Assembly (NCBI GenBank): GCA_947497145.1
Contig: CANMFQ010000012.1
Location: 1-64,000 of the forward strand
Direction: 5' to 3'
DNA from: an uncultured Flavobacteriaceae bacterium
GTDB lineage: Bacteria > Bacteroidota > Bacteroidia > Flavobacteriales > Flavobacteriaceae
DNA length: 64,000 nt
Below the pieces are notes generated by a model, which was not told the DNA's origin, searched no databases, and worked only from the letters and a program-made list of their open reading frames with translations. This document shows positions 50,395 to 54,567 of this stretch, piece by piece. The position numbers and the translations under genes are program-made. Each line of letters opens with the position of its first letter. Within the stretch, counting starts at the first letter, position 1.

Positions 50395-52023
50395 ATGGAT
50401 CTTAACTTCAACAAAAACGAAGATCACAATAAATTACTAGTATCTGAACTTAAAAAACGACTTGCCCAAGTAAAATTAGGTGGTGGTAAAAGTCGTATTG
50501 AAAAACAACACGCAAAGGGTAAAATGAGTGCTCGAGAGCGTACTGCTTATCTGCTAGATGACGATGCCGAAAGTGTAGAAATAGGCGCCTTTGTTGGAGA
50601 TGGAATGTATGAAGAGCATGGCGGGTGCCCTTCTGGTGGTGTGGTAGTAAAAATAGGCCATATAAAAGGCAAGCAGTGTATTGTAGTAGCCAATGATGCT
50701 ACTGTAAAAGCCGGTGCATGGTTTCCTATTACGGCTAAGAAAAATTTAAGAGCACAAGAAATTGCTATAGAAAATAGATTACCAATTATTTATTTAGTTG
50801 ATAGCGCAGGAGTATATCTACCTATGCAGGATGAAATTTTTCCGGACAAAGAGCATTTTGGGCGTATTTTTAGAAACAATGCCGTAATGAGCAGTATGGG
50901 AATTACCCAAATTTCTGCTGTTATGGGAAGCTGCGTCGCAGGAGGTGCTTACCTGCCTATTATGAGCGACGAAGCCTTAATTGTTGACAAAACCGGAAGT
51001 ATTTTCTTAGCGGGAAGTTATCTGGTAAAGGCTGCTATAGGCGAGTCTATTGATAATGAAACCTTAGGTGGTGCCACTACACACTGCGAAATTAGTGGCG
51101 TTACAGATTATAAGGCGAAAGACGATGCCGCCGCTCTAGATACTATTAAGAACATAGTAGGTAAGATTGGTGATTTTGACAAAGCAGGTTATAACCGTAT
51201 TGAAGCTGTAAAACCCAAAGAAAATCCTCAAGATCTCTATGGGGTGCTACCCAAACTGCGACATGAGCAATACGACATGTTGGAGATTATCAATAAATTG
51301 GTTGACAACTCAGATTTTGAAGAATATAAAAAAGACTACGGAAAAACCATACTTACGGGTTATGCACGTATTGATGGATGGGCAGTTGGTATTGTTGCCA
51401 ACCAACGCAAGGTGGTAAAAAATGCTAAAGGTGAAATGCAATTTGGAGGAGTGATTTACTCAGATTCAGCAGATAAAGCCACCCGATTTATTGCGAATTG
51501 TAATCAGAAAAAAATTCCGTTGGTTTTTTTACAAGATGTCACTGGGTTTATGGTAGGAAGCAAAAGTGAACACGGAGGCATTATAAAAGATGGAGCTAAA
51601 ATGGTGAATGCCGTGAGTAATTCTGTAGTACCAAAATTCACCGTTGTAATCGGAAACAGCTATGGAGCTGGAAACTATGCCATGTGTGGCAAGGCGTATG
51701 ACCCGCGTTTCATTGTAGCATGGCCAAGTGCAGAACTTGCTGTAATGAGTGGTAACTCTGCTGCTAAAGTACTCTTACAAATTGAAACAGCCTCATTAAA
51801 AAAGAAAGGCGAAACGATTACTCCAGAAAAAGAAGCCGAACTTTTTAATAAAATAAAAGACCGATACGACAAGCAAGTTTCTCCCTATTATGCAGCAGCT
51901 CGTTTATGGACCGATGCCATCATTGAACCCACAGAAACCCGCAAATGGATTGCTATGGGAATTGAGGCTGCCAACCATGCACCTATTGAAAAACCATTTA
52001 ATTTGGGCGTTTTGCAGGTGTAG
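50395..52023 (+). CDS. Acyl-CoA carboxylase beta subunit (carboxyltransferase)
   Basis: The 542-residue protein matches the propionyl-/methylcrotonyl-CoA carboxylase beta group over its full length: KMSARERTAYLLDDDA, the N-domain YLVDSAGVYLPMQ, oxyanion MGSCVAGGAYLPIMSDEAL, and the C-domain FLQDVTGFMVG and GNSYGAGNYAMCGKAY. It moves the carboxyl group from carboxybiotin to an acyl-CoA. The YLPMQ spacing and TGFMVG suit the methylcrotonyl-CoA (leucine degradation) subgroup slightly better than propionyl-CoA, but this is not decisive. The biotin-bearing alpha subunit is not adjacent. Confidence 0.92.
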   Translation: MDLNFNKNEDHNKLLVSELKKRLAQVKLGGGKSRIEKQHAKGKMSARERTAYLLDDDAESVEIGAFVGDGMYEEHGGCPSGGVVVKIGHIKGKQCIVVANDATVKAGAWFPITAKKNLRAQEIAIENRLPIIYLVDSAGVYLPMQDEIFPDKEHFGRIFRNNAVMSSMGITQISAVMGSCVAGGAYLPIMSDEALIVDKTGSIFLAGSYLVKAAIGESIDNETLGGATTHCEISGVTDYKAKDDAAALDTIKNIVGKIGDFDKAGYNRIEAVKPKENPQDLYGVLPKLRHEQYDMLEIINKLVDNSDFEEYKKDYGKTILTGYARIDGWAVGIVANQRKVVKNAKGEMQFGGVIYSDSADKATRFIANCNQKKIPLVFLQDVTGFMVGSKSEHGGIIKDGAKMVNAVSNSVVPKFTVVIGNSYGAGNYAMCGKAYDPRFIVAWPSAELAVMSGNSAAKVLLQIETASLKKKGETITPEKEAELFNKIKDRYDKQVSPYYAAARLWTDAIIEPTETRKWIAMGIEAANHAPIEKPFNLGVLQV

Positions 52024-52392: not shown

Positions 52393-54567
52393 TTAGCGAA
52401 TAGGTATTTTTGTAATTATTCTTTCGTTATCAATATTATTAAAACGAAAAACTTCTTGTGTTTCATATTGCCCTGCTTGACCAAAATAATATTGAACAAC
52501 ACATTTAATGAATAACGGTTTACGCTCATTATTTGCAAAAGTTCTTACGTTAATATACCAATCTCCTTTCTGTGCGTTCGACAACAAAAACTCCTCTATT
52601 TGAAAGCCCTTTTGTAATTCCTTCTGAATACGATTACTATTCTCCTTTTTTGAATGTGACCATTTTGAAATTTTTTTATCTGGCGATATAAACTCAATCT
52701 CAAATTCAGTATTAGAATCATTCCATTCTAAAAGAACTCTAGCATCATACCTCACTTCAGTCTTATACTTATCAGATACCATTGATATATTTACATCTTT
52801 ACCATACCTATAAACAAAATTTTTAAGTTCAAGAGTCACAATATCCTTTAATGAAGGAATATCTAATGTAGGTTGAAAACCAGGTTTTAAAATTTTTAGA
52901 TACCAATTTAAACCATCTTTTAAATTTCCTACTTGAACATTGCTGTTGGCTACATTTCTATAAGATTGAAGTTTAGAACCATCTAATGATAATATTCTAG
53001 TATAAATATCAAGAGCTTCCTTATACCTACCAGCCTCTTGATGATAATATGCTATGATCGTCAATATTGAAATATCATCAGTAACATTTTCCAAAGCAGA
53101 GTTCAATATATCCCTTGCAAGTTCAGCATTCGCTACTTTAAAAAGATTATAAACATCAATAAAATAATAAGGGTCATTAATGTAACTATTACGCTGTTCT
53201 AAATATACTTTATAGGAATCAGAAACCGTTTCCTCTTGTTCCAATACTTTCAAATAATGTCTATTAAGCTTGTCCTTCTCAACAATAAGACTCCCTGTAA
53301 AGTTATTATCTCTTAAAAGTGCCCGATCATATACTTCTTTCCCTTCGCCTTTAGAAACAGCTGTCGTTCCATATCTTGTTTTAATTATAATAACTCCATT
53401 TGAACCTTCCCCTCCATATCTATTGGCAGCTGCCAATCCTTTAAGAACCTCCACCGAAACAATATCATTGGGATTTACCATTTTTAGAATATCAACATTA
53501 ATTTGAGTTGTTAAGCTAGAATTAGCCCTAGGCATTGGAGCTCCATCAACTATAATTAAGGGGTAGTTATTCTGAGTAATACTTGAAAATCCACGAATAA
53601 TAGCTCTACTTAATCCTTCTTTATTAGTTTGAACCCCTGAAAATTTACCAACAACCGATTCATTAACAGAACTTCCAATTATCGTAAAATCCTCATTATC
53701 AATTTTTTGCACCCCTCCATAGCTAAGTGTTTTTGCCTTTGGCAGCCACTTAATCTTTTCATTTCCTACAACAACAACCTCTTCTAAATTTTCTAGTGAC
53801 TCCTCTAAATTAATTTCTACAAAATTTGAAACATTCGCTACTGAAATTTCAACAGTTTGCTTTCCTAGTAATTTAACAACAAGAGTATCAGTATCTTCAG
53901 TCTCTATTGCAAACTCTCCGTTTTTATTAGTTAACGTACCTTTACTCTTTCCCTGAATAATAACTGCTGCATCTTCAACTGGACCATTTTCATCTTTAAC
54001 TAGACCATTTAACACCATAGTACTAGTATCTTTCATGTTGGCTTTAACTCCTATATTATCTTTACTTCTTTCTGGAACAAGCATATGATAATTACCATTA
54101 GAATACAAGGACAGCCTTTCCAGCTTGGCATTACAGTCTCCAGTTGCACAAACTATATCCATTTTAGATTTACCATAATGCAATTTAAGTTCCTGCAATC
54201 TCGAGTGTCCATCGGTAAAAAATACGGAAGGCACATCGCTATCTTCTGATAGCAAAAAACTAAAATCCGAAATACCTTCATAAGTCAAGTTTGATAAAAA
54301 TAGTTTTAGAGGTTGTAAATTCTTATCAACAACAGTAAATTCTTTAGTATCCCTTATTCTATTAGAAAAGGTTACTACAACGACCTCCTTTACATCATTT
54401 TGTTTAAAAAAAGTATCAAGAAACTTCAATTCCTTTTCTACATCTCTTTTTTCCATTGAAAAGGATACATCCCAGTACAACTTTACACTATTAAAATTGA
54501 TACTAGATTGGCTAAAAATGCAACAAGAGCATAAAGCAAAAAAGAAACTAACTACTAACTTTATCAT
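52393..54567 (-). CDS. Fusion of vWA-like, carboxypeptidase-like, TonB-plug, TPR and DUF2135-like domains
   Basis: The 724-residue exported protein has a signal peptide (about 1-20), a von Willebrand A-like domain (about 25-170) with the MIDAS motif DVSFS (Asp33, Ser35, Ser37), and a carboxypeptidase-like beta-sandwich (about 183-255, MVLNGLVKDENGPVEDAAVI). A TonB-plug domain (about 260-400) follows, with LEEVVVVGNEKI, LIIVDGAPM and the SusC-like SNGVIIIKT. TPR-like helices (about 465-575) and a C-terminal DUF2135-like domain (about 620-720) complete it. No beta-barrel follows the plug, so it cannot be a transporter by itself. It lies 10 bases downstream of the M24 peptidase gene. Confidence 0.8.
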   Translation of the reverse strand: MIKLVVSFFFALCSCCIFSQSSINFNSVKLYWDVSFSMEKRDVEKELKFLDTFFKQNDVKEVVVVTFSNRIRDTKEFTVVDKNLQPLKLFLSNLTYEGISDFSFLLSEDSDVPSVFFTDGHSRLQELKLHYGKSKMDIVCATGDCNAKLERLSLYSNGNYHMLVPERSKDNIGVKANMKDTSTMVLNGLVKDENGPVEDAAVIIQGKSKGTLTNKNGEFAIETEDTDTLVVKLLGKQTVEISVANVSNFVEINLEESLENLEEVVVVGNEKIKWLPKAKTLSYGGVQKIDNEDFTIIGSSVNESVVGKFSGVQTNKEGLSRAIIRGFSSITQNNYPLIIVDGAPMPRANSSLTTQINVDILKMVNPNDIVSVEVLKGLAAANRYGGEGSNGVIIIKTRYGTTAVSKGEGKEVYDRALLRDNNFTGSLIVEKDKLNRHYLKVLEQEETVSDSYKVYLEQRNSYINDPYYFIDVYNLFKVANAELARDILNSALENVTDDISILTIIAYYHQEAGRYKEALDIYTRILSLDGSKLQSYRNVANSNVQVGNLKDGLNWYLKILKPGFQPTLDIPSLKDIVTLELKNFVYRYGKDVNISMVSDKYKTEVRYDARVLLEWNDSNTEFEIEFISPDKKISKWSHSKKENSNRIQKELQKGFQIEEFLLSNAQKGDWYINVRTFANNERKPLFIKCVVQYYFGQAGQYETQEVFRFNNIDNERIITKIPIR

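Follow-up and report, generated by a model that had tools for sequence, protein, structure and literature searches.

In its known role, the Ton system supplies outer-membrane receptors with energy. SusC/RagA transporters carry an NTE (PF13715), a TonB-box-like motif and a plug, in this order, together with a barrel. In the SusC protein BT1763, the TonB box 81-VDEVVV-86 comes after the NTE and is flexible in solution, and its deletion or change to alanine results in levan growth defects like those of SusD deletion (PMC7782687). Single-molecule work, as reviewed in PMC11658791, indicates that the bond between TonB and the TonB box is stronger than half the plug, and that the ~50 residues after the TonB box unfold first. 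Oar of Myxococcus xanthus, which comprises an NTE, a TonB box, a plug and a predicted 22-strand barrel, represents a use of Ton beyond nutrient import (PMC6434023). Furthermore, vWA force transducers have been proposed on TolQR/ExbBD-like proton-driven motors, in Bacteroidetes too; these proteins are the transducer itself, with a TM helix, SHLS in many of them, and a vWA domain replacing the TonB-CTD (PMC12204202).

Here we describe P0001, a protein encoded in the window, that is, the whole stretch of 64,000 nucleotides of Flavobacteriaceae DNA that was analysed. P0001 shares with SusC/RagA transporters the NTE, the TonB-box-like motif and the plug in the same order, and its LEEVVV follows the NTE as the TonB box of BT1763 does; unlike these transporters and Oar, it has no barrel, and instead a vWA domain stands before the module and TPR and DUF2135-like domains after it. 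By comparison with the vWA transducers, P0001 has the ligand side (TonB box and plug), and the SHLS motif is absent from its sequence. VIT-vWA proteins of the inter-alpha-trypsin heavy-chain type (TIGR03788, TIGR04477) share VIT and vWA with the long forms of the P0001 family, whereas P0001 has no VIT domain by Pfam and has the TPR-DUF2135 end and the Ton module in addition; the scores of the scanned long forms against TIGR03788 and TIGR04477 lie far under the cut-offs. In YfbK fusions, a different vWA protein bears the captured module, in some genomes in the same neighbourhood; these fusions end in YfbK_C, whereas P0001, which has no Pfam match to YfbK_C (PF12034), ends in TPR-DUF2135. A search of open-access PMC articles for plug and VIT together, DUF2135 and barrel-less plug retrieved no published description of this architecture.

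Overall architecture of P0001

The ORF list and its translation define P0001 as one uninterrupted ORF (Table 1), and frame 1 of the plus strand of 52393-54567 contains many stops. The first-pass annotation had described a plug with a SusC-type SNGVIIIKT end and no barrel, preceded by a MIDAS-containing vWA domain and followed by TPR helices and a DUF2135-like end. This observation is right, and the protein is richer than first described: every named domain is present, and between the vWA domain and the plug lie an NTE domain and the TonB-box-like residues 261-266, both of which had been missed. The order is thus a signal-peptide-like start, vWA, SusC-type NTE, LEEVVV, plug, TPR and the DUF2135-like end. 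No lipobox is recognised by eye in the N-terminus.

Table 1. Coordinates of P0001, its parts and the upstream gene in the window
Feature	Residues	Position in window	Strand	Basis
P0001 ORF, barrel-less plug protein	724 aa	52393..54567	-	ATG start, stop counted in
Signal-peptide-like N-terminal segment	1-20	54508..54567	-	Sequence by eye; helix 2-20 in model
vWA, MIDAS-type DxSxS at D33-S35-S37	26-165	54073..54492	-	VWA_2 E 0.0045; 6pyx match
CarboxypepD_reg-like / SusC NTE domain	185-258	53794..54015	-	PF13715; 9hfj match
TonB-box-like LEEVVV	261-266	53770..53787	-	Sequence, predicted disorder, conservation, BT1763 likeness
TonB-dependent receptor plug	285-400	53368..53715	-	PF07715 2.3e-11; 6z9a chain B match
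TPR helices	436-591	52795..53262	-	Weak Pfam TPR hits; helical repeats in model
DUF2135-like beta domain	605-724	52396..52755	-	Alignment with PF09906-positive relatives
M24 peptidase gene, 10 bases upstream of P0001		54578..55924	-	PF00557 in ortholog at L022; synteny

Two Pfam models score above cut-off in P0001, CarbopepD_reg_2 (residues 187-266, 9.4e-14) and Plug (residues 286-392, 2.3e-11), and vWA (residues 33-101, 0.0045) and TPR models (0.006-0.14) score below it. Residues 186-402 align to the NCBIfam SusC model TIGR04056 with an E-value of 1.7e-42, short of the cut-off set for the whole protein, and the alignment covers only model positions 3-208 of 981, from which we conclude that P0001 has no barrel. 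Consistent with this, a C-terminal 22-strand beta-barrel is absent, since the complete ORF continues after the plug into helices and a small beta domain. DUF2135 itself gives no Pfam match in P0001 at E up to 1 and is detected in the aligned relatives only. A frameshift hiding a downstream barrel is excluded, as the next long downstream ORF (50395-52023) is convergent, and a truncated SusC is likewise rejected, the ORF being intact and the barrel-less architecture being shared by many relatives.

PADLOC models give no match at E up to 0.01 to P0001 or three relatives, and a known anti-phage defence protein was accordingly rejected as a candidate. One viral-contig search, with a short-form relative as the query, found no relative. 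The promoter and terminator scan returned 29 promoter-like sites against 20.9 (sd 4.1) in shuffles, and 3 terminator-like sites against 2.9, counts on which we base no reading.

Structural models of P0001

The AlphaFold2 model of whole P0001, built with 36 family sequences, has a pLDDT of 79.8 and a pTM of 0.63, and supports the vWA, NTE and TPR domains. The modelled vWA domain matches the vWA domain of CLCA1 (6pyx; Z 12.4, rmsd 3.3, 143 aligned) and also ITI heavy chain 1 (6fpy; Z 11.0, rmsd 3.5, 145 aligned), and the modelled NTE matches the SusC NTE 9hfj (Z 14.5, rmsd 1.7, 79 aligned). The TPR region forms helical repeats with pLDDT mostly >90, and TPR chains are among its structural matches. 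By comparison, residues 258-284, which include LEEVVV, have a pLDDT <50 and are predicted to be disordered.

Because vWA and TPR chains made up most of the structural matches to the whole model, the plug was compared from a separate model of NTE and plug only, in which it folds as a SusC-like plug and superposes on that of SusC BT1763 (6z9a chain B; rmsd 2.3 over 103 aligned, Z 11.6); its confidence is middling, with a ten-residue mean pLDDT of 53-76 in the whole model and 57-84 in the NTE-plug model. The NTE fold further matches chain E of 9n2d, the F. johnsoniae BAM complex (Z 10.8, rmsd 3.9, 80 aligned), and the BamP model scores 32.3 of 230 bits on residues 183-282, far under its cut-off.

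The family occurs in long, mid and short forms

Full-length relatives of P0001 at 28-29% identity are present in genomes G021, G002, G013 and G011. With an alignment of the TPR-DUF2135 part, P0001 among its sequences, as the query, a phylum-wide sample of 395 genomes contains the family in 36 at E <1e-50 (the window's genome counted in). With the threshold at 1e-40, a class-wide sample of 395 genomes contains it in 23, and 91 of 298 sampled Flavobacteriaceae genomes, representing 81 of 236 genera, have it too. P0001 is thus no assembly accident, because the family recurs across Flavobacteriaceae, often as tandem arrays at this locus.

Three forms can be distinguished. The long form (VIT-vWA-linker-TPR-DUF2135, 935-1220 aa) is defined by the presence of a VIT domain, and 65 long forms were analysed; the mid form (vWA-NTE-plug-TPR-DUF2135), to which P0001 belongs, is mostly 670-750 aa; and the short form (NTE-plug-TPR-DUF2135), mostly 580-620 aa, occurs in tandem arrays. 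Both NTE and plug are found in 178 of the 216 scored family proteins. The widespread form of this family of Bacteroidota envelope proteins is the long one, with a signal peptide ahead of VIT, and P0001 and its closest relatives have lost VIT. Alignment of P0001 with the long form L027 covers residues 26-160 (1.5e-17) and 186-723 (4.7e-52), and the vWA, TPR and DUF2135-like regions are homologous over their length to the long-form family.

A contig search with short forms as queries gave 176 confirmed matches, and the best 80 of these define 74 loci, in genera that include Maribacter, Flagellimonas/Allomuricauda, Robiginitalea, Croceivirga, Croceitalea and Muriicola. A tally of the ORFs at these 74 loci, in which partial ORFs are counted too, gives 112 with NTE-plug-TPR-DUF2135, 21 with two plug hits, 20 with vWA, 3 with vWA and no NTE, 6 with two NTEs, 32 double-NTE proteins, 4 plug-plug proteins and smaller classes besides. 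It also contains 12 NTE-plug ORFs without TPR; ten of them are of 693-713 aa, one of which, in L133, is the YfbK fusion that was scanned as L022:2720-4825, and the two of 275-285 aa look partial. A 1283-aa relative at L245:5531-9382, minus strand, has vWA and several copies of NTE and plug.

Conservation of the TonB box

The entropies of the TonB box, NTE and plug are 0.81, 2.34 and 2.16 bits, respectively, over 190 family rows, and 0.72, 2.07 and 1.93 bits over 28 random family rows (200 draws). The corresponding values for 28 SusCs (one from the window and the 27 that best match a single query), cut out by HMM, are 0.68, 1.47 and 1.59 bits. At the level of sequence, the barrel-less members therefore keep the TonB box as tightly as SusCs do while the NTE and plug are relaxed. 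The SusC set is, however, more alike than the family (44% versus 34% pairwise identity), and this alone reduces the entropies of its NTE and plug.

Of the 178 proteins that contain both domains, 148 have the strict motif (8/8 long, 20/22 mid and 120/148 short forms), and the 30 misses, for example LDNVTVT and LEGVTVT, all conform to L-x-[ENG]-[VI]-x-[VI], a looser pattern set after inspecting them. Among long forms, 29 of the 33 that have NTE and/or plug contain the core motif; of the 32 that have neither, 8 contain it, against 1.18 in shuffles; the stricter xGY form occurs in 7 of these 32, against 0.009 in shuffles (maximum 1), and nowhere else in those proteins. The other 24 of the 32, many of them from other families and classes, lack the core motif too. 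The TonB box thus persists in some proteins without NTE, plug or both. In the mid forms L152, L155 and L160, for instance, the NTE is lost and LEEVVV or LDEVVV is kept.

Turnover of SusC N-terminal pieces in the linker

Scored by HMMs, the linkers between vWA and TPR of the 65 long forms comprise 22 with both NTE and plug, 5 with a plug alone, 6 with an NTE alone and 32 with neither. On a quick tree of these 65 proteins, which was built without the linker and midpoint-rooted and which was flagged for three long branches and for sequence composition, plug presence requires at least 6 changes, all forced by starred branches, against 20.9 for shuffled labels. Pieces of the SusC N-terminus have therefore entered and left the linker repeatedly.

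The variety of these pieces is evident within one genus (g43), in which L098 has the TonB box and plug, L095 the TonB box and the C-terminal half of the plug, L093 and L097 the NTE, TonB box and first plug helix, and L091 and L092 no module. The compact linkers of L072, L073 and L221 retain the TonB box and first plug helix, and several long-form linkers contain half plugs or plug fragments only. The TonB box comes after the plug in two proteins. In L234 the plug lies ahead of it in the linker, and in L037, of the same genus, most of the plug is gone and ETEPELDEIVV is kept. One long form only, L068:5244-8480 on the minus strand, has a TonB C-terminal domain in its linker (residues 679-749; PF03544, 25.0 bits, just over the Pfam cut-off of 24.6).

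Candidate barrel-docking residues of the plug

Four plug positions were compared across 28 SusCs, 12 long, 26 mid and 152 short forms. K at position 376 is found in 28/28 SusCs, 26/26 mid and 10/12 long forms, and K or R in 7/152 short forms; R at position 387 in 24/28 SusCs, 7/12 long, 0/26 mid and 1/152 short forms; N at position 390 in 28/28 SusCs and 4/152 short forms; and R at position 325 in 25/26 mid and 137/152 short forms. The SusC plug residues K376 and R387 are thus rare in the array (short) forms. Judged by their motifs, positions 325 and 376 are presumed counterparts of FhuA R93 and R133. By analogy with FhuA R93/R133 (PMC11658791), such plug residues would meet the barrel.

Neighbouring genes and small relatives

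The gene directly upstream of P0001 encodes an M24 peptidase, located as the first-pass annotation had it. Of the 74 loci derived from the best 80 of 176 matches, 7 have no upstream gene; at 58 of the remaining 67, the gene directly upstream is an M24 gene in the same orientation, with gaps of -4 to 475 bases. It adjoins none of the 36 long forms examined, and in L026 it is three genes away. This gene is part of a syntenic block that also includes putative carboxylase and MenE-like genes. Because none of the 36 long forms adjoins M24, we read its position as synteny, perhaps co-transcription, and not as partnership. The long form stands between the carboxylase and MenE-like genes in L027 and L069 and beside the MenE-like gene in L026 and L070, which suggests that the tandem arrays arose from the long form at this locus.

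YfbK with the same module is a better partner candidate than M24; it is full-length in 3 of 59 genomes and adjoins a long form in L069. YfbK-type vWA proteins with N-terminal NTE-TonB box-plug are recognised by Pfam at L022:2720-4828 and L069:2785-4872, and by full-length likeness at L024:3039-5201 and L031:12182-14287. A YfbK-like protein in L180 has an NTE-like start and LEEIITV, with no plug seen.

Small relatives accompany the arrays. Secreted-looking proteins of ~207 aa consist of two partial plug cores (L175:729-1352, L120:4856-5476, L031 14298-14924, L125 4907-5530 and L152 3422-4042), and no NTE, TonB box or barrel was found in the two examined in full. Double-NTE proteins of ~377 aa (L022:16772-17905 and 32 ORFs in L103-L176) are often at the array end, and those checked have an LNEVIV-like motif after the first NTE and no plug.

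Discussion

Our best reading, which we consider about as likely as not, is that P0001 is a periplasmic protein offering TonB a handle, rather than a plug awaiting a barrel. The linker is a slot into which the SusC-type NTE, TonB box and plug have entered repeatedly without the barrel, and in P0001 and its closest relatives, VIT being gone, the module lies between vWA and TPR. On the mechanism that we find most likely, P0001 would be periplasmic, and its TonB box would be bound by the TonB C-terminal domain; ExbBD-driven pulling, or mere occupancy by TonB, would then shift or unfold the plug, which would alter what the vWA, TPR and DUF2135 modules bind. P0001 would thus be a TonB client or regulator and not a transporter. 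The data show the architecture, its recurrence, the coming and going of the module, and a tightly kept box between relaxed neighbours; that the protein resides in the periplasm, that TonB binds it, that force or occupancy acts as the signal, and that vWA or TPR partners are affected, we infer.

Contact with TonB, which the first-pass annotation had raised as an adaptor role, is favoured because the TonB box is the most constrained part of the module, at receptor level, and outlasts NTE and plug in several lineages; P0001 may also be a decoy for TonB. We count the TonB C-terminal domain (PF03544) in the L068 linker and the module on YfbK nearby for a TonB client. Several observations count the other way: the plug-plug proteins have no TonB box, so the plug core may have a role of its own; the motif of the double-NTE proteins, which have no plug, could be tied to the NTE; and 24 of the 32 module-less long forms lack the core motif. 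A neisserial plug reportedly keeps its structure without the barrel, going by the title of one paper cited in PMC12419801. In contrast, the FepA plug on its own behaved like an unfolded protein (Usher 2001, cited in PMC11658791), which we also count against a TonB client.

A serious rival, though on balance doubtful, is passive capture, in which a long linker tolerates SusC N-terminal DNA acquired by recombination with dozens of susC genes and has little or no TonB function. The window's own genome alone provides 66 module-like matches, turnover between close orthologs is fast, the tree requires a minimum of 6 gain or loss events, many linkers hold fragments only, and the g43 linkers differ from gene to gene, with L091 and L092 lacking the module, as neutral turnover predicts. 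Yet NTE and plug are kept together in most scored proteins, the module of the aligned family retains ~34% pairwise identity, and receptor-level constraint on the TonB box with relaxed flanks, together with a box that outlasts NTE and plug in several proteins, does not fit simple capture. Less probable still, and in our view unlikely, is that the module mimics the SusC N-terminus as a generic, TonB-independent interaction domain, its NTE and plug core binding assembly partners such as BAM, chaperones or receptors under construction. The 9n2d match of the NTE fold (the BamP hit being far under cut-off) and the small barrel-less plug-plug and NTE-NTE proteins at the same locus agree with such a role, as does BT1763, where NTE deletion blocks growth and the authors link this to biogenesis or cell function (PMC7782687); it gives no account, however, of why a stretch predicted to be disordered, the TonB box, is the best conserved one.

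That P0001 supplies a spare or decoy plug docking into another receptor's barrel, as had also been suggested, is improbable: its plug fold is SusC-like and the mid forms keep K376 and nearly always R325, but the SusC residues at 376, 387 and 390 are rare in short forms, and several long forms have half plugs. The M24 peptidase as a partner, proposed earlier, would make P0001 a processed or secreted factor working with it, a reading that draws on the 10-base spacing and the frequent upstream position at the arrays; we give it hardly any weight, as M24 adjoins no long form examined and belongs to the block with the carboxylase and MenE-like genes.

Returning to P0001 as a TonB client, the presence of a receptor front end, TonB handle included, in gate-less proteins hints that the TonB motor may act on non-transporters too. 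If barrel-less proteins bind TonB, the Ton system has soluble native clients, and Bacteroidota plug proteins without a barrel gain a testable role. More broadly, and only tentatively, there may be a new class of TonB clients, native to the periplasm and neither receptors nor imported toxins, in which the TonB box is pulled or sensed by ExbBD-TonB, whether or not a plug accompanies it as an unfoldable tether; the VIT-vWA-TPR-DUF2135 linker and the YfbK N-terminus would then be a general Ton docking slot, which in many homologs contains TonB box and plug and in one a TonB C-terminal domain. The natural deletions of the family (NTE lost, plug lost, plug moved, box kept) allow box and plug to be considered apart, and its divergent paralogs form arrays at one locus, some in named isolated strains. 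PF07715 matches should not be counted as transporters outright.

Genes ahead of the distant long forms

The distant long forms L077, L089, L099, L101, L079 and L094 follow a gene of 290-450 aa with Por_Secre_tail, a type 9 secretion sorting domain, the match in L099 being below the Pfam cut-off. A sigma-factor-like gene precedes the Por_Secre_tail gene in L077 and L089 (by Pfam) and in L099 and L101 (by eye). The Por_Secre_tail gene product is a possible anti-sigma factor whose outer part resembles a sorting domain.
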